Below, one piece after another: positions 1-23,097 of a stretch of DNA of 47,052 nt. A model generated the notes under the pieces. It was not told the origin of the DNA. It made no database searches and saw nothing but the letters and a program-made list of their open reading frames with translations. Source of the DNA: Rhodopseudomonas sp. BR0M22 (GTDB lineage: Bacteria; Pseudomonadota; Alphaproteobacteria; Rhizobiales; Xanthobacteraceae); the NCBI RefSeq assembly GCF_010907035.1, contig NZ_QUMK01000044.1:1-47052 (forward strand). The letters run 5' to 3'. The translations under genes and the position numbers were made by a program. How positions within the stretch are numbered: position 1 is the first letter of the stretch; each line of letters starts with the position of its first letter.

Positions 1-998
1 GGCCAGACGTAGCTGCGATCGAGCGGCACTGCCGCCTCGGCGCGCGCGCGATCGACATCGCCGGCTTCGAGCAACGTGCGGGTCGTCGCCGGATTGGCTC
101 GGAGCGCGTTGGCGAGATCATCGAGGTCGGGCAGCGGCGGCGGCGGTTTCCATTCCACCTCGAGCAGCCTCGCGGCTTCGATCGCCTGCTCCTCGCGCTC
201 GGCGACCACGCCGACGAAATCGCGCATGGTGACGACCGCCACCAGCCCGCGAATATGCGCCACCGACGCCTCGTCGACTCGGATCAGGCTGTTGCCGATG
301 AACGGCCCGGCATCGACTCCGGCGTAAGGCGGACGCACTACGCGGCCGTGCAACATCCCCGGCACACGGACATCGTGGACATAAACGAAATTACCAGTCG
401 CCTTGGCAGGAATGTCGACCCGCGCCATCCGCCGGCCGACGATGCGGTGATCAGCGACCGGCTTCAACGCGACCTCGTCGGCGAGCATCAACCGTTCCTG
501 GCGTCCCCTGAGCAGCTCCGCATAGGACACGCCAACATTACCCCCGTCGCGTGGATGTACCACGCCGTCCGTCACAGTGAGCTTGTCGGCGGGCAGCTCG
601 AGCGCCGGCACCGCGAGCGCCACCAGATGATGGCGCGCCTGCGCCGCCGCTTTACGTAGCGGCACCGCGGTGACCTGAATGCTGTCGCTGGCGATGGTCG
701 CACCCTGGTTCGGCGTCCCCGAGGTGTGGCCGAGCACCATGGTCACGCGCTCGAACGGAACATCGAGTTCTTCCGCGACGATCTGCGCAAAGGCGGTGCG
801 GATGCCGGTGCCGAGATCGACGTGGCCGCTGAAGGCAAGCACCTGGCCACTGTCATCGAGATACAGAAACAGATCGAGCGCACCGTCCGGCGGCGGCGCT
901 GTCGGCACCAGACCCCTGACATGCTGCGCCGGGCGCAACACGCCCAACGTGCCGGAGCGAGCCAAGAGCTCGGAAGGCGCCGGAGTCGGCTCGCTCAT
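1..998 (-). CDS. Molybdopterin-binding hydroxylase large subunit, N-terminal part (isoquinoline 1-oxidoreductase/nicotinate dehydrogenase B type), cut by window edge
   Basis: The leftward frame stays open from an ATG at 998 to the window edge, giving about 332 residues without a stop. Near residue 57 it reads GHVDLGTGIRTAFAQIVAEEL. This is the aldehyde-oxidase-family motif at the N-terminus, an order typical of IorB/NicB-type subunits rather than xanthine dehydrogenase. Such subunits bind the Mo-cytosine dinucleotide cofactor and hydroxylate N-heteroaromatic rings with water as the oxygen source. The ATG overlaps the TGA of the small-subunit gene (ATGA at 995-998), so the two are co-translated. 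The Mo ligand region and any C-terminal cytochrome domain lie outside the window. The family call is firm; the substrate is inferred from the neighbouring reductase. Confidence 0.85.
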   Translation of the reverse strand, partial: MSEPTPAPSELLARSGTLGVLRPAQHVRGLVPTAPPPDGALDLFLYLDDSGQVLAFSGHVDLGTGIRTAFAQIVAEELDVPFERVTMVLGHTSGTPNQGATIASDSIQVTAVPLRKAAAQARHHLVALAVPALELPADKLTVTDGVVHPRDGGNVGVSYAELLRGRQERLMLADEVALKPVADHRIVGRRMARVDIPAKATGNFVYVHDVRVPGMLHGRVVRPPYAGVDAGPFIGNSLIRVDEASVAHIRGLVAVVTMRDFVGVVAEREEQAIEAARLLEVEWKPPPPLPDLDDLANALRANPATTRTLLEAGDVDRARAEAAVPLDRSYVW

Positions 999-1507
999 GG
1001 CGTCCCACCCTGCGCTGAGTCCGCGGCGTGATCGCAGCCCGGCGCGCCGGCGGCCGCCATCACCGCCCGCAGAATCTCCACATGGGTCCCGCAGCGGCAT
1101 AGATTGTAGCGCAGCGCCTGACGAACCTGATCTTCGGTCGGACACTGGTTGCGGCTGAGAAACGCCGCCGCGGTCATGATCATGCCGTTCAGGCAATAGC
1201 CGCACTGCGCCGCCTGTGCGTCGATGAATGCCTGCTGCACGGGATGCAACGCAGCCAGCGAACCGAGCCCTTCGAGCGTGGTGACCGAACGCCCCTCCAC
1301 GGTTTTCAGCGTGACGACACATGACCGCGCTGCAACGCCGTCGATCAGCACCGTGCAGGCGCCGCACTCCCCGAGCCCGCAGCCGAATTTGGGCCCGTTC
1401 AGTCCGAGATCGTTGCGAAGTACGTAAATCAGCCGGGTGTCGCGCGGCAGGTCGAAGCTATGGACAGCACCGTTAACGGTAAACGCGACCGGTCCGGCGG
1501 CGGTCAT
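995..1507 (-). CDS. (2Fe-2S)-binding small subunit of the molybdenum hydroxylase
   Basis: This 170-residue protein carries two [2Fe-2S] clusters that pass electrons from the Mo site of the large subunit. The plant-ferredoxin-type cysteines are in GCGLGECGACTVLIDG, near residues 38-53. The second cluster motif is CGYCLNG followed by NLCRCGTH. The length fits NdhS/NicA/IorA-type subunits. I chose the ATG at 1507, preceded by GGACGAG; the frame is open further upstream to 1657, but that stretch has no family features and would overlap the promoter. It is the first gene of a leftward operon, divergent from the reductase gene. The partner at 998 overlaps its stop codon. Confidence 0.88.
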   Translation of the reverse strand: MTAAGPVAFTVNGAVHSFDLPRDTRLIYVLRNDLGLNGPKFGCGLGECGACTVLIDGVAARSCVVTLKTVEGRSVTTLEGLGSLAALHPVQQAFIDAQAAQCGYCLNGMIMTAAAFLSRNQCPTEDQVRQALRYNLCRCGTHVEILRAVMAAAGAPGCDHAADSAQGGTP

Positions 1508-1615
1508 CTCGTCCGCGCCCCGCGGCACGCCAGAACCGGCTGCTGATAACTCCGGCGGCGGAGATGTCGGACGGTCCGGCAAGCACGGTTCCCCTGGTAA
1601 CGAAGCCTCGGCGAG

Positions 1616-1733
1616 ATTGTTTCTGTACCAATGATCATCGTCAAGTGCCGTTTGCACTGCGATGTGAGTTTGTGCAGTGCATGCTTATTCCTTGTGCTTG
1701 ACTTGCGCTCGGCGCGGCGATTTCATTGGTACA
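1616..1733. promoter_or_regulatory. Divergent promoter/operator between hydroxylase and reductase operons
   Basis: A perfect 11-bp inverted repeat lies at 1624-1634 (TGTACCAATGA) and 1723-1733 (TCATTGGTACA). An inner 8-bp inverted repeat lies at 1653-1660 (TGCACTGC) and 1674-1681 (GCAGTGCA). The leftward promoter candidate is TTGACG at 1644-1639, a 17-bp spacer and AACAAT at 1621-1616; the outer half-site sits inside the spacer. The rightward candidate is TTGACT at 1698-1703, 17 bp, then a poor -10 TTTCAT at 1721-1726; the other half-site overlaps the -10 and start. The symmetry suggests one repressor controlling both operons. The MarR protein at 10128 is the obvious candidate, but this is inference. 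Confidence 0.6.
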
Positions 1734-1783
1734 CATACAAATACAGGCAAGCCCCTCACGGTCGCCCTGGAGCCAGCAGCGGA

Positions 1784-3280
1784 ATGCAGAACGACATTAC
1801 GAACGGCTTAGGCGCGGCGAGCGACGGCAGGATCCGCTGCGACGCCTGTCCGGTGATGTGCTACATCAAGCCGGGCGCAAGCGGCGCCTGCGACCGCTAT
1901 GCCAATCACGAAGGCGAATTGGTGCGGGTCGACCCGCATGTGCTACTCGACCGCACCCTCGCGGAGGGCGGCGCGATCGTCCCTTTCCACCGCGACGGCT
2001 CCTGGGACGGCAAGCTGATCGCCGAAGGCCACACCTTCGTCACAGCGATCGGCGCTGGAACCACCTACCCCGACTATAAACCCGCGCCGTTCATCGTCTC
2101 GTCCGAAGTCAGCGGCGTCGACATGGTCACCGTCGTCACCGAGGGCATCTTCAGTTACTGCGGCGTCAAAGTGAAGATCGACACGGACCGTTTCCTTGGG
2201 ACCGAACAATCCGTCGTGCGCGCTTCGGGCGAAGCCGTTGGTCACGTCACCACTTCGGAATACGGCTCACAGATGCTGTCGCTCGGCGGCGTGCATCACC
2301 TCACCGGCGGCGGCAAGAAGGAAGGCCGTGTCACCTGCGACGTGCTGCTCGATCTGTGCAATCGCAAGCCGGTCGAGCTGACGATCGACGGCGGTGCAAA
2401 AGTGGTAGTTCAGGCCGGCCAGCCGCCGATAGTCAACGGCGTCACCGAGGAGCGAATGCGCGTCGGCTGCGGCTCCGCCACGATCGGCATGTTTGCCAAA
2501 CAGTGGTACGGACAGGTCGACGAAGTCGTCGTCGTCGACGATCACATCACCGGCGTATTGTCCGAGCATCAGGCCGGCAAGTTGCTCGGCGTGCCCGACA
2601 CCGGCATCAAGATGAAGGGGCGCCGCTCGACACCCGGTCGCTACTTCCAGGTCGCCGAGCCCGGCACCGGCTGGGGCGGCACCAACATCTCGGATCCGTT
2701 GTCGATCATTCACCCGTTCGACAAGAAGGTGGCTTGGCCGGGGCTGCGGCTGTTCTTCATCTCGACCACCGGCGAGCACGCCGCTTACTTCGAGCTGGAC
2801 GATGATCTGGCTCCTCGAGCCAAGGAGATGCCGCCCGGGCTCGTCGCTTCTTGCGCCCGCATCCGCGACAATTGCGAACCGGCGCTCTCGACCGTGCTGT
2901 TCATGGCCGGCGCAGGCGGCTCGCTCCGCTCTGGCGTCACCGAAGATCCGGTGCGCCTTACCCGCTCGGTGAAGGACGCGCTCACCTACGTCACCTGCGG
3001 CGGCGCGCCGGTCTACGTCTATCCCGGCGGCGGCATCACCTTCATGGTCGACGTGATGCGGATGCCGGAAAACGCCTTCGGCTACGTGCCGACCCCGGCA
3101 CTGGTGGCGCCGATCGAATTCACGCTGCGGCTGACGGACTACGCCGAGCTCGGCGGTCACATGGACGAAGTCCGCCGCGTCTCGTCGATGGCCGCCGGCG
3201 ACAGTCAGCGAGCAATCGCCCCGCATGCCGACAATCCTTGGCCGCTGTCGCCGAACGGCGCCAAGCGATCGTTCGGGTGA
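1784..3280 (+). CDS. 6-hydroxynicotinate reductase-like iron-sulfur protein
   Basis: This 498-residue protein resembles the 6-hydroxynicotinate reductase family known from nicotinate fermentation in Eubacterium barkeri. That enzyme reduces 6-hydroxynicotinate to the tetrahydro-6-oxo compound with reduced ferredoxin. A cysteine cluster at residues 19, 22, 26 and 36 (CDACPVMC then GACDRY) looks like a ferredoxin-type Fe-S site. The rest is one long, glycine-rich, soluble domain with no membrane segment. The ATG at 1784 is chosen because it directly precedes the Cys cluster; the frame is open upstream to 1631, but that part overlaps the operator. It is the first gene of a rightward operon, 3 bp before the UPF0280 gene. 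The family call rests on recollection of sequence features; the true substrate may be another hydroxylated N-heterocycle. Confidence 0.7.
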   Translation: MQNDITNGLGAASDGRIRCDACPVMCYIKPGASGACDRYANHEGELVRVDPHVLLDRTLAEGGAIVPFHRDGSWDGKLIAEGHTFVTAIGAGTTYPDYKPAPFIVSSEVSGVDMVTVVTEGIFSYCGVKVKIDTDRFLGTEQSVVRASGEAVGHVTTSEYGSQMLSLGGVHHLTGGGKKEGRVTCDVLLDLCNRKPVELTIDGGAKVVVQAGQPPIVNGVTEERMRVGCGSATIGMFAKQWYGQVDEVVVVDDHITGVLSEHQAGKLLGVPDTGIKMKGRRSTPGRYFQVAEPGTGWGGTNISDPLSIIHPFDKKVAWPGLRLFFISTTGEHAAYFELDDDLAPRAKEMPPGLVASCARIRDNCEPALSTVLFMAGAGGSLRSGVTEDPVRLTRSVKDALTYVTCGGAPVYVYPGGGITFMVDVMRMPENAFGYVPTPALVAPIEFTLRLTDYAELGGHMDEVRRVSSMAAGDSQRAIAPHADNPWPLSPNGAKRSFG

Positions 3281-3283
3281 CGT

Positions 3284-4198
3284 ATGGGCGCCGCCTCGCA
3301 GCTCAGATCGCCGACGGCTGGACGCGCCATACAGGCCGCGCTGCTCGCGGACGGCCGCCGTCTGCATCTGCATGATGGCCCGATCGACCTGATCATCGAA
3401 GCGACCGGCGAGCCGCCGGCGGTACGCGCGGCTTACGTCCGCGCAGCAGAACGCTTCGCCGGCCTTCTCGACGCCCTTTGCGCAGAGCTGCCGGGTCTGC
3501 GCGCGCCGGCCGGACCCGACGCCGCGCCGCTCGCCCATGTCGTGGCGCGCCACATGCAGCAGGCAGTGGCACCGTTTGCGGCCGACGTCTTCATCACGCC
3601 GATGGCAGCCGTGGCCGGCGCGGTCGCCGAACACGTTCTGCAGGCGCTGATCGGCCCCGGTATCACCCGCGGTTACGTCAATAATGGCGGCGACATCGCG
3701 CTGCATTTGCCGCCGGGCGCCACCGTCACGGTCGGCCTGGTCGCGCGGCCGGACCGGCCGGCCCTCGTCGGAACCGCCACGATCGATCATGCCAGCCCTA
3801 TCCGCGGCATCGCCACCAGCGGCTGGCGCGGCCGCAGCTTCTCGCTCGGCATCGCCGATGCGGTGACCGTCCTCGCTCCATCCGCGTCGATGGCCGATGC
3901 GGCCGCCACCGTGATCGCCAATGCGGTCGATCTGCCGGATCATCCCGGCATCGTTCGGGTGCCGGCATGCGAATTACAGCCCAACAACGATCTCGGCGCC
4001 CGTCTCGTTACGCGCAACGTTCCGGAGCTGTCCACGCCGGCACGAGCTGCCGCGCTCGAAGCCGGTCTCGATGTCGCACGGAATCTCGCCGCGCGCGGGC
4101 TGATCTGCGACGCCGCCCTGCACCTGCAGGGCGAGACCGTCAGCGTCGGCACCGCAACGCTCGTCCTCCAACCGCATCAGGAACTCGCCGATGCCTGA
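3284..4198 (+). CDS. UPF0280 family (ApbE-like) protein
   Basis: A 304-residue soluble protein of the UPF0280 family, which shares the ApbE (FAD:protein FMN transferase) fold. The visible ApbE-like signature is GYVNNGGDIALHL with NNGGD at residues 133-137, matching the NxGGD motif of ApbE proteins. No signal peptide is seen, so it should be cytoplasmic. It starts 3 bp after the reductase stop and overlaps the next gene by 8 bp, so it is part of the same transcript. The function is not established. Roles in flavin handling of the adjacent reductase, or a separate ring-processing step, are both possible. Confidence 0.75.
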   Translation: MGAASQLRSPTAGRAIQAALLADGRRLHLHDGPIDLIIEATGEPPAVRAAYVRAAERFAGLLDALCAELPGLRAPAGPDAAPLAHVVARHMQQAVAPFAADVFITPMAAVAGAVAEHVLQALIGPGITRGYVNNGGDIALHLPPGATVTVGLVARPDRPALVGTATIDHASPIRGIATSGWRGRSFSLGIADAVTVLAPSASMADAAATVIANAVDLPDHPGIVRVPACELQPNNDLGARLVTRNVPELSTPARAAALEAGLDVARNLAARGLICDAALHLQGETVSVGTATLVLQPHQELADA

Positions 4199-4775
4199 AG
4201 TCAAAGTCCGCAAGAAACTGCTGATCACCGAGGAGGTGTTCCACGAAGGTGGCCCGATCGCCTCGAGCCCGCGCAAGCGCAGTGCGATCATCGCCGTGAT
4301 CGAGAACCCGTTCGCAGGCCGCTATGTCGAGGCGATTTCCGGCTTCATGGACGATCTGACGCCGCTCGGCGTCGCGCTCGCGGGCGAGCTGTTGCAGGCA
4401 CTCGGCGGCGACGCCAAGGCGGTCGATGGCTACGGCAAAGGCGCCATCGTCGGCGCGAGCGGCGAACTCGAACACGGTGCCCTGTGGCATGTGCCCGGCG
4501 GCTACGCGATGCGTGAGATTCTCGGCGACGCGAAGGCGATCGTGCCTTCGACCAAGAAAGTCGGCGGCCCCGGTACCCGGCTCGACGTGCCGATCACCCA
4601 TGTCAACGCCTCCTACGTGCGCAGTCATTTCGACGCCATGGAGGTCGGCGTACCGGATGCGCCGAAGGCCGACGAGATCGCATTGGTACTGGTGATGAGC
4701 TGCGGTCCGCGCGTCCACGCCCGCGTCGGCGGGCTCGCTGCGGCTGACATCAAGGGCGAGGACGGGCTGCGATGA
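4191..4775 (+). CDS. DUF1185 (amino acid synthesis family) protein, copy 1
   Basis: This 194-residue protein belongs to the DUF1185/PF06684 'amino acid synthesis' family, whose one structurally studied member has a chorismate-mutase-like fold; no reaction is established. Characteristic segments are VIENPFAGRYVE near residue 36, the HVNASYVRSHFDAMEV region near 138, and a C-terminus ending KGEDGLR. It overlaps the 3' end of the UPF0280 gene by 8 bp and the start of the second copy by 4 bp. The tight packing ties it to the reductase operon and suggests a role after ring reduction, such as ring opening or tautomerisation. That role is inference. Confidence 0.8.
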   Translation: MPEVKVRKKLLITEEVFHEGGPIASSPRKRSAIIAVIENPFAGRYVEAISGFMDDLTPLGVALAGELLQALGGDAKAVDGYGKGAIVGASGELEHGALWHVPGGYAMREILGDAKAIVPSTKKVGGPGTRLDVPITHVNASYVRSHFDAMEVGVPDAPKADEIALVLVMSCGPRVHARVGGLAAADIKGEDGLR

Positions 4776-5356
4776 AGGCGAAAATCCGCAAGATCGTCGT
4801 TGTGGTCGAAGAAACGCTGACCGAGATGGGGCGCACGATCACGCCGCCGACACGCCAGGCCGCCGCTCTGGCGGTGATCGAGAACCCGTTCGCGGGCCGC
4901 TACGTCGAGGATCTCTCCGAACTGAGCGCGATCGGCGAGGAACTCGGCGGCCTGCTTGCCGCGAGAGCGGTGGCGGCGCTCGGGATCGAGGGACCGGAAG
5001 CCGAGAGCTACGGTAAAGCCGCGCTGGTCGGCGAGAACGGCGAGCTCGAACACGCCGCGGCGCTGCTGCATCCGAAAATGGGCACCCCGGTGCGCAAGGT
5101 GCTCGGCAAGGGCGCGGCTCTGATTCCGTCGTCGAAGCGACGCGGCGGGCTCGGCGCCGAATTGGACATCCCGCTCGGCCACAAGGACGCCGCCTATGTG
5201 CGCAGCCACTTCGGCGGCATGCAGGTGAACGTGCCGGATGCGCCGCGCGCGAACGAAATCGTGGTGGCTGTGGCGGTGACCGATTCCGGCCGGCCTCTGC
5301 CGCGAGTCGGCGGGCTCACCACCGCCGAGATCAAGGGTGAAGACGGTTTGCGTTGA
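4772..5356 (+). CDS. DUF1185 (amino acid synthesis family) protein, copy 2
   Basis: This is a tandem paralogue of the preceding gene with exactly the same length (194 residues). It shares VIENPFAGRYVE, the AYVRSHF-GM-V segment, VPDAP and the final KGEDGLR, but diverges elsewhere. The ATG overlaps the TGA of copy 1 (ATGA at 4772-4775), which points to translational coupling and perhaps a 1:1 complex. The stop is 39 bp before the binding-protein gene. The reaction is unknown. The divergence argues against simple redundancy; a heteromeric enzyme or two successive steps on related intermediates are plausible. Confidence 0.8.
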   Translation: MKAKIRKIVVVVEETLTEMGRTITPPTRQAAALAVIENPFAGRYVEDLSELSAIGEELGGLLAARAVAALGIEGPEAESYGKAALVGENGELEHAAALLHPKMGTPVRKVLGKGAALIPSSKRRGGLGAELDIPLGHKDAAYVRSHFGGMQVNVPDAPRANEIVVAVAVTDSGRPLPRVGGLTTAEIKGEDGLR

Positions 5357-5395
5357 GGACGTTGGCTGAGGTCGTGAACAGGAGGGCTTGAACGG

Positions 5396-6592
5396 ATGAA
5401 ATACGTAGCAGGACTGGCGTTGTCGGCGTTGCTGTTGGCCTCTGGCGCAGCACACGCCCAGCAGGGCGAAATCAAGGTCGGCGAGATCAATTCGTATTCG
5501 GCTTTGCCCGGCTTCACCGAACCCTATCGCAAGGGCATGGAGCTCGCCCTGAAGCAGATCAACGATGCCGGCGGCATCAAGGGCAAGAAGCTGGTCATCA
5601 TCTCCAAGGACGACGGCGCCAAGCCGGGCGACGCGCTGACCGCGGCCAACGAGCTGGTGTCTCGCGACGGCGTGGTGCTGCTCGCCGGCGGGTTCCTGTC
5701 GAATATCGGCCTCGCGCTGTCGGATTTCGCCAAGCAGAAGCAGGTTTTGTACATCGCCGCCGAACCGCTGACCGACGCGATCGTGTGGTCCAAGGGCAAC
5801 GACTACACCTTCCGCCTGCGCACGTCGAACTACATGCAGGCGTCGATGCTGGCCGAGGAAGCCGCCAAGCTGCCGGCCAAGAAGTGGGCCACCATCGCCC
5901 CGAACTACGAGTTCGGCCAGTCGTTCGTCGCCGCCTTCAAAGAGGCGTTGACGAAGAAGCGCCCGGACGTCGAGTTCATCGCCGAACAGTGGCCGCCGCT
6001 GAACAAGATCGACGCCGGTCCGGTGCTGCAGGCGATCGACGCCGCCAAGCCGGATGCGATCCTCAACGCAACCTTCGCCGGCGATCTCGTCAAGCTGGTC
6101 CGCGAAGGCAACACGCGCGGCGTGTTCAAGGACCGCGCGGTCGTGAGCTATCTCACCGGCGAGCCGGAATATCTCGATCCGCTGAAGGACGAAACGCCGG
6201 AAGGCTGGATCGTCACCGGCTATCCGTGGTACGCGATCAAGACCGCCGTGCATCAGGCGTTCCTCGACGCCTATCAGAAGGCATACAACGACTATCCCCG
6301 GCTCGGTTCGGTGGTCGGCTATTCGACGGTGAAATCGATCGCCGCCGTGCTGAACGCCACCGACGATCACTCCACCGCCAGCCTGATCAAGGCGATGAAG
6401 GAACTCAAGGTCGACACCCCGTTCGGACCGGTGGTGTATCGCGGCGCCGACCACCAGTCGACGCTCGGTGCCTATGTCGGCAAGACCGCCAAGAAAGACG
6501 GCAAGGGCATCATGGTCGACATCGAGTTCAAGAAGGGCGCCGACTACCTGCCGAGCGAAGCCGAGGCCGCCAAGCTACGGCCGGCGAACTAA
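5396..6592 (+). CDS. Branched-chain amino acid-type ABC transporter, periplasmic substrate-binding protein
   Basis: A 398-residue LivJ/LivK-like (Peripla_BP_6) binding protein. The signal peptide covers residues 1-22 and ends AHA before QQGEIKVG. The mature start, the EPYRKGMELALKQINDAGGIKGKKL block and the KLVREGNTRGVF block are typical of the family. A strong Shine-Dalgarno site (AGGAGGG near 5380) precedes the ATG. It follows the DUF1185 genes by 39 bp and leads the transporter genes. The family takes up amino acids, but also amides and aromatic acids. Given the neighbours, the ligand is more likely the heterocycle degraded here, or a carboxylated relative, than leucine. Confidence 0.88.
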   Translation: MKYVAGLALSALLLASGAAHAQQGEIKVGEINSYSALPGFTEPYRKGMELALKQINDAGGIKGKKLVIISKDDGAKPGDALTAANELVSRDGVVLLAGGFLSNIGLALSDFAKQKQVLYIAAEPLTDAIVWSKGNDYTFRLRTSNYMQASMLAEEAAKLPAKKWATIAPNYEFGQSFVAAFKEALTKKRPDVEFIAEQWPPLNKIDAGPVLQAIDAAKPDAILNATFAGDLVKLVREGNTRGVFKDRAVVSYLTGEPEYLDPLKDETPEGWIVTGYPWYAIKTAVHQAFLDAYQKAYNDYPRLGSVVGYSTVKSIAAVLNATDDHSTASLIKAMKELKVDTPFGPVVYRGADHQSTLGAYVGKTAKKDGKGIMVDIEFKKGADYLPSEAEAAKLRPAN

Positions 6593-6701
6593 TCCGACCG
6601 AACGGGCGGCGCAGCGGCGCCGCTCGTTCCGACCGGCCGCCGCACAGCGGGGGCCGTGATCCTCAGCAAGCCGACGACCCGAAGCACGAAAGGCGTCAGA
6701 C

Positions 6702-8621
6702 GTGGAACTTCTCTTTGTCCAGGCCCTCAGCGGACTTGCCAGCGCGGCATCGCTGTTCCTGGTGGCGTCCGGCCTGTCGATCATCTTCGGCGTCACCCGC
6801 ATCGTAAACTTCGCGCACGGCGCCTTCTATATGCTCGGCGCCTATGTGGCCTACACGCTGACCAGCCGCTTCGCCGGCCCGCTCGGATTTTGGGGCGGAC
6901 TGCTGGTCGCGAGTCTCATCGTCGCAGCACTCGGCGCGCTGATGGAGATGGTGCTGCTGCGGCGGATCTATCAGGCGCCCGAACTGTTCCAGCTGCTCGC
7001 CACATTCGGCGTCACGCTGATGGTGCAGGATCTGGTGGTGGTGATCTGGGGCGCCGACGATCTGCTCGGGCCGCGCGCGCCCGGCTTCACCGGTGCCTTC
7101 AGCCTGTTCGGCCGCAACATTCCGACCTACGACCTGCTGCTGATCGCGCTCGGGCCGGCTGTACTCGGCCTGTTGTGGCTGCTGTTCCACCGCACCCGCT
7201 GGGGCGTACTGGTGCGCGCCGCCACGCAGGATCGCGACATGGTGGCGTGCCTCGGCGTCAATCAGAAATGGCTGTTCACCAGCGTGTTCGCGCTCGGTGT
7301 GTTTCTCGCCGCGCTCGGCGGCGCGCTGCAGATCCCGCGCACCACCGTGACCCACTACATGGACCTTTCGATCATCGTCGAAGTCTTCGTAGTCGTGGTG
7401 ATCGGCGGCCTCGGCTCGGTGACCGGTGCCTTCGTCGCCGCTGTGCTGGTGTCCGAGCTGAACGCGCTCGGCATCCTCGCGCTGCCGAAAATCTCGCTGG
7501 TCGCGGTGTTCTTGGTGATGGCCGTGGTGCTGGTGGTACGGCCGTTCGGCCTTTTCGGCAAAGCCGAACGGGCTCCGCGCAGCAGCGCCGGCACCTCGTT
7601 CCGGCCGTGGAAGCCGATGACGAGCATCGAGCGGATCGGCGTAGCCCTGATCGTCGCGCTGGCGGCACTGCTGCCGCTGTTCGCCGGCAACTACGCGCTC
7701 AGCGTCGGCTCCGAGATTTTGGTGTTCGTGCTGTTCGCCGCCAGCCTGCACTTCATGATGACGGTCGGAGGCCTCGCGTCGTTCGGTCACGCCGCCTATT
7801 TCGGTCTGGGCGCCTATGGCGCAGCGTTCGCGATCAAGTTTCTCGGCGCGCCGATGGGCGTGGCGCTGCTCATCGGACCGCTGTTCGGCTTGGCCGGCGC
7901 AGTCATCTCCGGGTGGTTCTGCGTTCGCCTGTCCGGCGTGTATTTCGCGATGCTCACACTGGCCTTCGCCCAGATCATCTGGTCGGTGGCGTTCCAATGG
8001 GTCGAGGTCACCGGCGGCGACAACGGCATCCTCGGCATCTGGCCATCGCGCTGGGCGTCGAGCCCGGAGGGCTTCTTCTGGCTGACGCTGGCGATCGTCG
8101 CCGTCAGCGTCGCATTGCTGCGCGTGCTGGTGTTCTCGCCGTTCGGCTTCGGCCTCCGCGCCACGCGTGACAACACGCTCCGCGCCGACGCCATCGGCAT
8201 CGATCGCAAATCGGTGCAATGGGCGGCATTCATAGTATCGGGTACGTTCGCCGGGCTCGCCGGAGCGCTGTTCGCCTTCCTAAAGGGTTCGGTGTTTCCG
8301 GAGACGCTCGGCATTCCGATCTCGGTCGACGGCTTGGTCATGGTGCTGCTGGGCGGCATCGAGACGGTGTCGGGTGCGGTCGTCGGTGCCATCTTCTACA
8401 AGGCGCTGGCGATCTGGCTGATGAGTCAGACCGACCTGTCGAAGCTCGTGCTCGGCGCCATCATCGTGCTGCTGGTGGTGGCCTCGCCCAAAGGCATCGT
8501 CGGTTTCATCGAGCAGATTCGCCATCGACGACCTCCCAGCCCGAACGGCGCGGGGTCTTCGGCGGCACGCGCCGATGCTTCCGACGCGCTCGGTATCGCC
8601 AAGATGAAGGTCGCCGAATGA
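6702..8621 (+). CDS. Fused LivH-LivM-type ABC transporter permease
   Basis: A 639-residue inner-membrane protein joining two permeases normally encoded separately. Residues 1 to about 290 are LivH-like (SIIFGVTRIVNFAHGAFYMLGAY near the start, VVVVIGGLGSVTGAF later). Residues from about 310 are LivM-like (GGLASFGHAAYFGLGAYGAA, then VMVLLGGIETVSGAVVGA). The join is a hydrophilic linker around FGLFGKAERAPRSS. The GTG at 6702 is the start, preceded by AAGG. A tail of about 35 residues after the last membrane segment is hydrophilic. The stop overlaps the ATG of the ATPase gene. Natural LivHM fusions occur in this order, so it is not necessarily a broken gene. Confidence 0.88.
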   Translation: MELLFVQALSGLASAASLFLVASGLSIIFGVTRIVNFAHGAFYMLGAYVAYTLTSRFAGPLGFWGGLLVASLIVAALGALMEMVLLRRIYQAPELFQLLATFGVTLMVQDLVVVIWGADDLLGPRAPGFTGAFSLFGRNIPTYDLLLIALGPAVLGLLWLLFHRTRWGVLVRAATQDRDMVACLGVNQKWLFTSVFALGVFLAALGGALQIPRTTVTHYMDLSIIVEVFVVVVIGGLGSVTGAFVAAVLVSELNALGILALPKISLVAVFLVMAVVLVVRPFGLFGKAERAPRSSAGTSFRPWKPMTSIERIGVALIVALAALLPLFAGNYALSVGSEILVFVLFAASLHFMMTVGGLASFGHAAYFGLGAYGAAFAIKFLGAPMGVALLIGPLFGLAGAVISGWFCVRLSGVYFAMLTLAFAQIIWSVAFQWVEVTGGDNGILGIWPSRWASSPEGFFWLTLAIVAVSVALLRVLVFSPFGFGLRATRDNTLRADAIGIDRKSVQWAAFIVSGTFAGLAGALFAFLKGSVFPETLGIPISVDGLVMVLLGGIETVSGAVVGAIFYKALAIWLMSQTDLSKLVLGAIIVLLVVASPKGIVGFIEQIRHRRPPSPNGAGSSAARADASDALGIAKMKVAE

Positions 8622-9400
8622 CCGCGCTCCTCCAAGTCGAGACGCTGGCCAAATCCTATGCCGGTGTCCATGCCGTGAAGAACGTCTCGTTCGCGCTGTC
8701 GGCCGGCGAGATCCTCGCGCTGATCGGCCCCAACGGCGCCGGCAAGAGCACCTGCTTCAACATGCTCAACGGCCAGATTCGTCCCGACGCCGGATCGATC
8801 CGGATCGCCGGCGAGAACATCGTCGGGCTGCCGCCGCGTGCGGTGTGGCGGCGCGGCGTCGGCCGCACCTTCCAGATCACCGCGACGTTCTCGTCGATGA
8901 CGGTGCGCGAAAACGTCCAGATGGCACTGCTGTCGTATCACCGCCGACTGTGGGCCGTGCTCGGATATGCCGGCGCCAGCCATCGCGACGAGGCGGACCG
9001 TCTGCTCGATCTGGTCGGTATGCTGCAGCAGGCGGGCCGCCCCTGCGGCGAGCTCGCCTATGGCGACCTGAAGCGCCTTGAGCTGGCGGTGGCGCTCGCC
9101 AACCAGCCGCGGCTGCTCTTGATGGACGAACCGACCGCCGGCATGGCGCCGAAGGAGCGCGTCGAGCTGATGCGGCTCACGACCGACATCGCCCGCCGCA
9201 AGAAGATCGCTGTGCTGTTCACCGAACACGACATGGACGTGGTGTTCGAACACGCCGACGAGGTCATGGTGCTCAACCGCGGAGAGCTCGTCACCCGCGG
9301 CACACCGCAGCAGGTGCGCGCCGATCCGCACGTGCAGGCGATCTACCTCGGCGAGGGCCTGCTCTACGACGCCAAACACCGCGCGGAGGCGACACCATGA
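8618..9400 (+). CDS. ABC transporter ATP-binding protein, LivG type
   Basis: This 260-residue ATPase powers the importer. Walker A is GPNGAGKST (near residue 37). The signature region is LAYGDLKRLELAVAL, the LivG variant of LSYGD. Walker B is LLLMDEPTAGM, followed by TEHDMDVVFEHAD with the switch histidine. The ATG at 8618 overlaps the permease TGA, and GAAGG lies just upstream. The last codons overlap the LivF-type gene by 4 bp. The length is typical of LivG. Nothing is missing from the catalytic motifs, so the pair with the next gene should be active. Confidence 0.92.
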   Translation: MTALLQVETLAKSYAGVHAVKNVSFALSAGEILALIGPNGAGKSTCFNMLNGQIRPDAGSIRIAGENIVGLPPRAVWRRGVGRTFQITATFSSMTVRENVQMALLSYHRRLWAVLGYAGASHRDEADRLLDLVGMLQQAGRPCGELAYGDLKRLELAVALANQPRLLLMDEPTAGMAPKERVELMRLTTDIARRKKIAVLFTEHDMDVVFEHADEVMVLNRGELVTRGTPQQVRADPHVQAIYLGEGLLYDAKHRAEATP

Positions 9401-10101
9401 AGCTCGAAGTTGCCGAATTGAACAGCTTCTACGGTCCGGCCCACATCCTGTTCGACGTCGGCTTCGCGGTCGGCGACGGCGAGGTGGTGGCGATGCTCGG
9501 GCGCAACGGCGCCGGCAAGAGCACCACCTTCCGCACCATCATGGGCCTGGTGTCGCGCCGAGCCGGCCTGGTGAAGTTCGAAGGCGACGAGATCACGCGC
9601 TTGCCGTCCTACGAGATCGTGCGACGTGGCCTCGGCTATGTTCCGGAAGACCGCCGCATCTTTTCCGAACTCACGGTGGAGGAGAATTTCGAGGTCGGCC
9701 GCCAGAAGCCGCGCCCCGGCGCTGCCGCCTGGACGCCGGACCGCATCTACAAGCTGTTTCCGAATCTCGGCGAGATGCGCCGGCGCCTCGGCGGTGACAT
9801 GAGCGGCGGCGAACAGCAGATGCTCAGCATCGGCCGCACGCTGATGGGCAACCCGTCGCTGGTGCTGCTCGACGAGCCGTCCGAAGGGCTGGCGCCGAAG
9901 ATCGTCGAGCAGATGGCTGGCGCGATCCTGGCGATGAAGCGCGAAGGCCTCAGCATCGTCATATCCGAGCAGAACCTGCATTTCGCCAAGCTGATCTGCG
10001 ATCGAGCCTATATTATCGAGAAAGGACGAATTCGATTCTCCGGCACCATCGACGAGCTCGAAGCCCATCCCGAGATTCGGGACGCCTATCTGGCCGTGTG
10101 A
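9397..10101 (+). CDS. ABC transporter ATP-binding protein, LivF type
   Basis: The second ATPase of the importer has 234 residues. Walker A is GRNGAGKST, the signature is MSGGEQQML, Walker B is LVLLDEPSEGL, and the switch region is VISEQNLHFAKL, with glutamine and asparagine where LivG has histidine, as usual for LivF. Its ATG overlaps the TGA of the LivG gene. With the binding protein, fused permease and LivG it makes a complete importer. The MarR gene follows after 26 bp, so the regulator is probably on the same transcript. Confidence 0.92.
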   Translation: MKLEVAELNSFYGPAHILFDVGFAVGDGEVVAMLGRNGAGKSTTFRTIMGLVSRRAGLVKFEGDEITRLPSYEIVRRGLGYVPEDRRIFSELTVEENFEVGRQKPRPGAAAWTPDRIYKLFPNLGEMRRRLGGDMSGGEQQMLSIGRTLMGNPSLVLLDEPSEGLAPKIVEQMAGAILAMKREGLSIVISEQNLHFAKLICDRAYIIEKGRIRFSGTIDELEAHPEIRDAYLAV

Positions 10102-10127
10102 TCGGATCGGACCAAGAGGCAATTTGA

Positions 10128-10583
10128 TTGAATACGAAATCCACCACCAAGCGGCGCTCGGAGGGCAAGTCCGCCTCCTATCTGCTCGACACTCAGGTCG
10201 GTTTCATCCTGCGGCAGGCGCTGCAGCGCCATGCCACGATTTTTGTGGACCATATGGGCGAAGACCTGACCATGACCCAATGGGCCGCACTGTCGAAGCT
10301 GCTTGAAAAAGGCCCCTGCTCCCAGAACCTGCTCGGCCGCTACACCGCGATGGATGCCGCCACCATCAAAGGCGTCGTGGAGCGCCTGGTTCGACGCGGT
10401 CTCGTCGAGACCAACCCCGATCCGGACGACGGCCGCCGCCTGCTGGTGACGCTGACCGCTGACGGCGTCGCCCAGACCGAGCGCTTGATCCCGGCGGCGC
10501 ACGAGATCACCAAGGAAACGCTCTCCCCGCTGACGAAGGACGAACGCACCCAGTTTCTGGCGCTGCTGTCGCGCTTGAAATAG
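10128..10583 (+). CDS. MarR family transcriptional regulator
   Basis: A 151-residue MarR-type winged-helix protein. The DNA-binding part spans roughly residues 45-115: MTQWAALSKLLEKGPCSQNLLGRYTAMD, then TIKGVVERLVRRGLVE and the wing DPDDGRRLLVTLT. The frame begins with TTG at 10128, about 9 bp after AAGAGG; no ATG or GTG occurs before the conserved fold, so a TTG start is the best reading. It is the last gene of the catabolic/transport operon. MarR proteins often sense small aromatic acids, so it probably controls the operator at 1624-1733. That link is inference. Confidence 0.85.
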   Translation: MNTKSTTKRRSEGKSASYLLDTQVGFILRQALQRHATIFVDHMGEDLTMTQWAALSKLLEKGPCSQNLLGRYTAMDAATIKGVVERLVRRGLVETNPDPDDGRRLLVTLTADGVAQTERLIPAAHEITKETLSPLTKDERTQFLALLSRLK

Positions 10584-22185: not shown

Positions 22186-23097
22186 CTACCTCAGGTAACT
22201 CGCCAGGGTCAGGCTTTGCACCGTCGCAATAGCGGAATAGGAAGCCGTGAGTTGTGCCTGATAGGTCGCCAGCGCCGCCGTCACTGCCGCGACGTCCACG
22301 CTGGTCAGATCGGTGGCCAAAGACTGTGCAAACGATTGATAGTCGGATTGGACCGTGTTGGCGCGCTCGATCGACGCCGCCGAATTGGAGATCCGGCTTT
22401 GCACGGTGCCGATCGCATCGGTCGCGCTGGTGACAAGATCAAGCGCCTCCTCGAGCGTGTCCGACGATAGCGACGAAGCGTTGGCGATCAGATTCATCGC
22501 CCGCATCGCCTGCTCGAACGCCGGATCGTCTGCGGTGACACCGTAGGTCACCGTCTGAGTGTCCGACACCCGCGCCGACGCCAGCTCGTCGTCGCCCTGA
22601 TAGTACGAGGTGTCGGAGCTGGACGGTGTGGTCGCGGCCGGGTAGGTCGCGCTGGACACGTCGACCGGCGCGGTATCGGTGCGGGCGCCGCCGAACAGAT
22701 ACTGCGCGCCGTATTTGCTGTTCAGTAGAGCGGCCATTTGATTGAGCGCGTCCTGCGCGGACTGGATCACGCTGGATGAATCCGTGCTGGCGGCGTTGCT
22801 CGCCGCGGTCAACGTGCTGCGGAAGCTCGACAGCAGGTCGGCGATCGAATTCACCGACGCATACATCACCTCGATCTTGCTGCCGGCCTGGGTCGCGGTG
22901 TCGATGTAGGTCTGGGCACGGGCGACCGAGACCTGCAGGTTGACGATCTGCTTGGCCCCCGAGCCGTAGCCACCGAAATCGGTGGAAACGACGCCGGACG
23001 CCTCCTGCATCTGCATCGTGGTCATCGTCGCCTGGCTCTTGAGAGCGGCAGCGATCATCTGCTGGCTGGCTGCGAAGGTGGCGACGCGCATGGTCAT
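22186..23097 (-). CDS. flgL: Flagellar hook-filament junction protein FlgL
   Basis: A 303-residue flagellin-like protein, the last gene of the flagellar block. The N-terminal helix region (TFAASQQMIAAALKSQATMTTMQMQEASG) and a C-terminal coiled region (SNSAASIERANTVQSDYQSFAQSLATDLTSVDVAAV) match FlgL (HAP3). The centre is Ser/Thr-rich and contains KYGAQYLFGGARTD, a family hallmark. It joins hook-side FlgK to the filament. It starts 11 bp after flgK. A short flagellin is possible, but the YLFGG motif and its place after flgK favour FlgL. Confidence 0.88.
   Translation of the reverse strand: MTMRVATFAASQQMIAAALKSQATMTTMQMQEASGVVSTDFGGYGSGAKQIVNLQVSVARAQTYIDTATQAGSKIEVMYASVNSIADLLSSFRSTLTAASNAASTDSSSVIQSAQDALNQMAALLNSKYGAQYLFGGARTDTAPVDVSSATYPAATTPSSSDTSYYQGDDELASARVSDTQTVTYGVTADDPAFEQAMRAMNLIANASSLSSDTLEEALDLVTSATDAIGTVQSRISNSAASIERANTVQSDYQSFAQSLATDLTSVDVAAVTAALATYQAQLTASYSAIATVQSLTLASYLR

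Follow-up and report, generated by a model that had tools for sequence, protein, structure and literature searches.

This locus raises the question of how a bacterium that appears equipped to begin a reductive breakdown of nicotinate would open the reduced ring. The window, meaning the whole 47,052-base stretch of Rhodopseudomonas sp. BR0M22 analysed here (all of contig C98), carries a gene for a 6-hydroxynicotinate reductase orthologue (Hnr) beside genes of the UPF0280 and DUF1185 families. Across 1..10583, every family named by the first-pass annotation was found: molybdenum (Mo) hydroxylase subunits, an Hnr-like protein, UPF0280, two DUF1185 proteins, a Liv-type importer and a MarR regulator. 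That annotation saw no gene for enamidase, the enzyme that opens the lactam in Eubacterium barkeri, and proposed that DUF1185 and UPF0280 proteins replace it. Enamidase was indeed not found within the window, but this absence is true of the window only and not of the genome.

The source genome (5.29 Mb, 159 contigs, 99.99% complete) is divided in the middle of the cluster, and the window begins inside nicB, the gene of the Mo subunit. When the 1183-residue NicB of a relative (G012) was searched against the window's own genome, residues 1-332 matched C98 and residues 336-1183 matched C19:5091-7631 on the minus strand, at 86% identity. Since C19 is 7631 bp long and the match reaches position 7631, the break passes through nicB. 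C19 ends inside the gene at the point where C98 starts; the translated ends are ...DRSYVW (C98) and MHGSIG... (C19), and G012 has PYQ in between. C19 also encodes a ferredoxin-NADP-reductase-like protein (Fpr), 81% identical to its G012 orthologue. Just past the missing part of nicB, on the same strand and in the same order as in G012, lies an enamidase gene (C19:2719-3915) whose product is 92% identical to that of G012, which in turn matches the solved E. barkeri enamidase (PDB 2vun) at E 2.7e-107 over 384 residues. As predicted from these orthologues, the step supposed to be missing is present at its usual place, and the proposed replacement is an assembly artefact. The lesson is that a step inferred to be absent near a contig edge has to be checked against the remaining genome.

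The surroundings of other Hnr genes were compared with a tblastn panel (E <= 1e-8) in 64 Hnr-bearing loci, a set weighted to near relatives. Besides the window it comprised 49 loci from genomes of the phylum, 4 from plasmid records and 10 on named contigs, nine of these from Bacillota and one bearing the label Deltaproteobacteria. An 11th named contig (L088, 25% identity) gave no panel match and was excluded. UPF0280 was detected in 62 loci and DUF1185 in 61, with two copies in 23. The two loci lacking UPF0280 are L082, truncated by a contig end, and L094, which has UPF0280 on another contig; the three lacking DUF1185 are again L082, L097 (G040), whose fetched stretch shows none, and L122 (G197), whose whole genome has none. 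Within the fetched stretches, 35 of the 64 loci contain enamidase, 15 contain HyuA, none contains both and 14 contain neither. Among the 35 enamidase loci, including that of E. barkeri, UPF0280 accompanies the enzyme in 33 and DUF1185 in 34. That DUF1185 and UPF0280 substitute for enamidase as ring openers was suggested by its absence inside the window; the enamidase orthologue on C19 and the joint occurrence of Hnr, UPF0280, enamidase and DUF1185 in E. barkeri refute this idea, and we give it next to no chance.

In six of the 14 loci with neither ring opener (the window, L064, L100, L102, L105 and L118) an enamidase of at least 69% identity is encoded elsewhere in the genome, and in L112 and L119 one of 60-63% lies on another contig. 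The remaining six gave no genomic enamidase at E <= 1e-60, and HyuAB was not sought genome-wide. At this threshold, enamidase is matched in 34 of the 50 genomes that carry Hnr. Two genomes with HyuAB beside Hnr (G040 and G056) have only an enamidase match of 41-43% elsewhere; because they carry both, the ring openers are mutually exclusive within loci and not within genomes. The HyuA loci are L052, L053, L055, L096-L099, L113, L114, L117, L121, L122, L125, L126 and L130, with HyuB in 12 of the 15; three of these Hnr-UPF0280 loci are plasmid records. HyuA is of the hydantoinase/oxoprolinase type, which suggests an alternative ring opener, possibly ATP-dependent.

The first-pass annotation had made its reading depend on where phylogeny would place the Hnr-like protein, and the window protein groups among enamidase-linked Hnrs. 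On this tree the enamidase/HyuA label requires at least three changes, a count from a quick tree with long branches (L130 above all), supported by the Shimodaira-Hasegawa-like approximate likelihood ratio test only, and with the labels of the window, L064, L100, L102, L105 and L118 set by hand from the genome-wide enamidase matches. This pattern suggests an exchange of ring-opening genes around a pair, hnr and UPF0280, that remained together.

The gene order is also conserved. In G012, G002, G028, G011 and G008 (5 of 8 relatives examined) the complete 13-gene arrangement is present as marR-livF-livG-livHM-livK-DUF1185b-DUF1185a-UPF0280-hnr, with nicA-nicB-fpr-ena divergent from it. G028 has one additional gene between hnr and nicA, and a 109-residue ferredoxin gene precedes its fpr. 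G013 and G001 are consistent with the full order as far as their fetched stretches extend, and in G007 the contig starts inside nicB and the enamidase is on a different contig. Within the fetched stretches the order recurs in 8 of 8 relatives and is not due to chance. Separately, an AMP-binding (acyl-CoA-ligase-like) gene (C19 168-1727) and an enoyl-CoA hydratase-like gene (1807-2634) adjoin the enamidase gene of the source genome and were not seen at that position in G012.

From the above, the locus is very probably a cluster for reductive nicotinate catabolism of the kind found in Azorhizobium, Bradyrhizobium and Rhodopseudomonas, split by a contig end; it is an ordinary cluster of a kind already described. 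The reductive nicotinate-type start proposed earlier agrees with the NicA/NicB-like subunits, the Hnr orthologue, the importer and the regulator. Gene content, gene order, contig break, orthology and co-occurrence were established by computation, and the reactions that follow are predictions from them. The two divergent operons are nicA-nicB-fpr-ena and hnr-UPF0280-DUF1185a-DUF1185b-livKHMGF-marR. The Liv-type importer would take up nicotinate, and NicAB would hydroxylate it to 6-hydroxynicotinate, passing electrons to its own c-type haem domains: cytochrome c and Mo-cofactor domains are found in the full-length NicB of G012 and likewise in the C19 part, and three CxxCH motifs are readable in the NicB sequence. 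The hydroxylase has the 2Fe-2S and Mo subunits of a nicotinate hydroxylase, its substrate being predicted. Electrons from NADPH would reach Hnr through Fpr and ferredoxin, giving 1,4,5,6-tetrahydro-6-oxonicotinate, and enamidase, by orthology to the characterised enzyme, would open the lactam and free ammonia to yield 2-formylglutarate. UPF0280 would serve Hnr, most likely by attaching or supplying flavin, and DUF1185 might act on or handle the ring-opened product.

Two observations weigh against this route. Hnr homologues also adjoin other hydroxylases and HyuAB, so that nicotinate as the substrate is itself a prediction, and only one of the eight relatives (G028) was seen to have a free ferredoxin gene next to fpr. 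The cluster could instead serve another azaarene, such as a substituted pyridine carboxylate, through Hnr and enamidase homologues of shifted specificity, as the swapping of hydroxylase and ring-opening genes among Hnr loci would allow. We regard this as improbable, as the window falls among the loci with NicAB and enamidase, the kind that includes the published nicotinate cluster.

With nicotinate breakdown as the preferred reading, the remaining lead is the pairing of Hnr with UPF0280, a family without assigned function that has a flavin-transferase fold. The first-pass annotation had called for a co-occurrence search, and its outcome was divided: UPF0280 follows Hnr closely, and DUF1185 also occurs without it. 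Two draws of genomes were used, 398 genomes of the phylum and the window's genome with 60 relatives; they overlap in part, and related genomes do not count as independent. In the first, a strong Hnr match and a UPF0280 match above cut-off were each found in 32 genomes, and these are the same 32. At E <= 0.001 the numbers rise to 36 for Hnr (G058, G274, G283 and G400 are weak fragments) and 34 for UPF0280 (G351 and G430 are weak). In the second, both occur in the same 19 of 61 genomes, which include 8 of the 16 belonging to the genus of the window; the Hnr match of G058 is again weak. Taking both draws together, UPF0280 is present in each of the 50 genomes in which Hnr matches strongly. The two genes are on the same strand in 58 of 58 loci measured, and overlap or lie at most 5 bases apart in 49. 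Their distance correlation (0.93; 58 loci) is lower than that between Hnr and enamidase (0.98; 32 loci), and therefore lends no special support to co-evolution.

The window UPF0280 protein matches NF003322 at 399 bits (cut-off 290), and its predicted structure (predicted local distance difference test score, pLDDT, 92.3) has the ApbE fold. In a search of PDB folds with this model, DVU1097 came top and ranks 3-40 were all ApbE/Ftp/FmnB flavin transferases (E 4.4e-5 to 0.1, 9 at E <= 0.001; template modelling (TM) scores 0.30-0.49). For example, FmnB was matched by Foldseek at E 4.4e-5, probability 1.00 and TM-score 0.43. Alignment with ApbE profiles by hhalign gave a probability of 96.7% (E 3.3e-10, 98 columns), with GGD, TSG and AD..(A/S)T aligned. 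The Ser, Asp and Thr positions of the transferases are retained in UPF0280; AD..[AS]T and [TSA]SG are present in 59 of 59 UPF0280 proteins. According to PMC12052999, ApbE uses an Asp-Ser-His catalytic triad with His as general base and recognises a target motif. The stretch with the catalytic His (H..DP.TG), and with it the triad, is missing from all 59 UPF0280 proteins; likewise, none of the 62 Hnrs shows the target motif D..[ST]GA[ST] (D-x-x-[S/T]-G-A-[S/T]). No match to the ApbE family PF02424 was found in the window's genome. Among the six Hnr-bearing genomes of the 60-genome draw searched for this family, PF02424 is absent from G000 and G095 and occurs at least once in G068, G076, G110 and G114; with four of six carrying it, the absence of ApbE is no rule.

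Hnr matches no Pfam or NCBIfam family. Against PDB sequences it gave nothing better than E 0.14, and the best fold match of its model (pLDDT 79), at E 7.4e-3 and probability 0.06, was not usable. Six Cys are invariant in an alignment of 38 Hnr sequences. Of 62 Hnr proteins, 39 have [ST]GAC, whose last residue is the fourth invariant Cys of the N-terminal part; we take this Cys to be a cluster ligand and not the flavin site. In L130 (G076) the hnr match is split across two overlapping frames, by a frameshift or a sequencing error.

The Hnr of E. barkeri reportedly carries a covalently bound flavin. This, the strict pairing of UPF0280 with Hnr in both draws and the lack of a PF02424 match in the window's own genome lead us to propose, tentatively and at somewhat less than an even chance, that UPF0280 is a non-canonical flavin transferase of the ApbE fold, working in the cytosol on one target alone: Hnr, a flavo-iron-sulfur reductase without a solved relative. 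It would then use another base and another attachment site than ApbE. Alternatively, UPF0280 may be a protein that shares the ApbE fold and hydrolyses FAD, carries flavin or binds substrate. This has nearly an even chance, given that both the His stretch and the target motif are missing, that TM-scores to ApbE proteins are modest, and that Methanocaldococcus jannaschii and Methanosarcina acetivorans hold UPF0280 relatives below the NF003322 cut-off (Hnr was not sought in them). If UPF0280 does attach the covalent flavin of Hnr, it would represent a second kind of ApbE-type chemistry, and UPF0280 and Hnr would form an obligate enzyme-maturase pair that persists as the genes for hydroxylase and ring opening are swapped around it. 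A search of titles in the open-licence literature found neither an earlier functional proposal for UPF0280/DUF375/PRK04334 nor one linking ApbE with nicotinate, which is weak as evidence of absence.

DUF1185 is not tied to Hnr, and the family serves more than one route. The two window copies match PF06684 at E 1.2e-69 and 9.7e-73, and 2qtp and 3byq are solved relatives. PF06684 occurs in 59 of the 398 genomes, namely in 31 of the 32 with Hnr and in 28 without it. We summarized the neighbourhoods of 20 DUF1185 copies from 19 of these 28 genomes (the DUF1185 gene was called in 19 of 20), with 142 of 145 neighbouring proteins scanned at E <= 1e-10. The neighbours (L161-L179) include 14 aldehyde dehydrogenases, 12 luciferase-like monooxygenases, 11 flavin reductases and 10 alpha/beta hydrolases, a set that resembles the trigonelline (tgn) route. 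PMC7913881 names TgnF as a homologue and states that attempts to see an effect of HcdD failed; both are DUF1185 relatives. A role as hydroxy-lactone opener, prompted by TgnF and HcdD and by the neighbour counts, was considered and not adopted; nor were a Ser-Lys cyclic-amide hydrolase like cyanuric acid hydrolase and a RidA-like enamine deaminase, both prompted by analogy of fold. Away from the Hnr locus, on separate contigs (G181:C11 and G252:C11), a gene for an enamidase of 60-63% identity adjoins two DUF1185 genes.

The features of the window are collected in Table 1. The families of the first-pass gene description stand, and three details were corrected: nicB is truncated, the hnr reading frame is open from 1631 with the coding score favouring the start at 1784, and the two Liv permeases form a single open reading frame. 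This fusion is also found in near relatives, and Neorhizobium (L052) has two separate genes.

Table 1. Features of the nicotinate-type cluster in the window (positions are those of the window)
Feature	Position	Strand	Basis
nicB-like Mo subunit, N-terminal 332 residues, truncated by contig start	1..998	-	family scans, comparison with relatives
nicA-like 2x[2Fe-2S] subunit, start uncertain	995..1528	-	family scans
operator-like site TTGTTTCTGTACCAATGA	1617..1634	+	similar site in window and 7 aligned relatives; motif search
second copy of operator-like site, opposite orientation	1723..1740	-	alignment; motif search
hnr, 6-hydroxynicotinate reductase orthologue, 498 residues	1784..3280	+	coding score, orthology, tree
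UPF0280 (NF003322), ApbE-fold protein	3284..4198	+	profile match, predicted structure
DUF1185/PF06684 copy a	4191..4775	+	profile match
DUF1185/PF06684 copy b	4772..5356	+	profile match; best solved relative 2qtp (SPO0826)
livK-like periplasmic binding protein	5396..6592	+	family scans
livHM fused permeases, 639 residues, two BPD_transp_2 stretches; GTG start uncertain	6702..8621	+	family scans
livG-like ATPase	8618..9400	+	family scans
livF-like ATPase	9397..10101	+	family scans
MarR-family regulator	10128..10583	+	family scans

The stretch between the divergent operons contains TTGTNTNTGTACCAATGA twice, once in each orientation and with 106 bases from start to start, and similar sites are at the same positions in all 7 relatives aligned with the window. 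Searching the window with a motif built from these two sites gave 2 exact matches, where 0.10 would be expected with up to 3 mismatches allowed. These two conserved sites are the probable target of the MarR protein. A promoter pairing near 1698 was rejected for unsuitable spacing. Of seven genes scanned beyond marR, six gave matches, to an acetyltransferase, a PMT_2 glycosyltransferase-like protein, outer-membrane, RND and membrane-fusion efflux proteins and a response regulator; none of these families points to a role in the nicotinate pathway. The seventh gene, at 22186-23097, had no match.

The closest known system is the cluster reported in 2012 for Azorhizobium caulinodans, Bradyrhizobium japonicum, R. 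palustris HaA2 and strain SG-6C (PMC3511419). Its role was inferred there by BLAST, and strain SG-6C is described as growing via 6-hydroxynicotinate. Its 6-hydroxynicotinate reductase is given as 42% identical to a comparison protein from 'E.', and apart from the contig break no difference from the window's cluster was found in the accessible text, which does not name UPF0280 or DUF1185 and proposes no role for the unknown proteins.

The other comparison is with E. barkeri, whose nicotinate route is confirmed in PMC9304392. Its 21-kb locus (L078), located with the 2vun sequence (100% identity), shares with the window's cluster Hnr (41%), UPF0280 (34%), one DUF1185 (54%) and enamidase (46%), and likewise has 2Fe-2S and Mo dehydrogenase subunits; DUF1185 directly follows enamidase. 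It differs in that the Mo subunits are only 23-34% alike, in pieces, that DUF1185 is single where the window has two, and that the panel found neither Fpr nor a Liv importer. In addition, a 2[4Fe-4S] ferredoxin domain is fused to the N-terminus of the E. barkeri Hnr (reading frame open from position 1827 of L078), and the window Hnr is without it, which would fit a separate supply of electrons by Fpr and ferredoxin.

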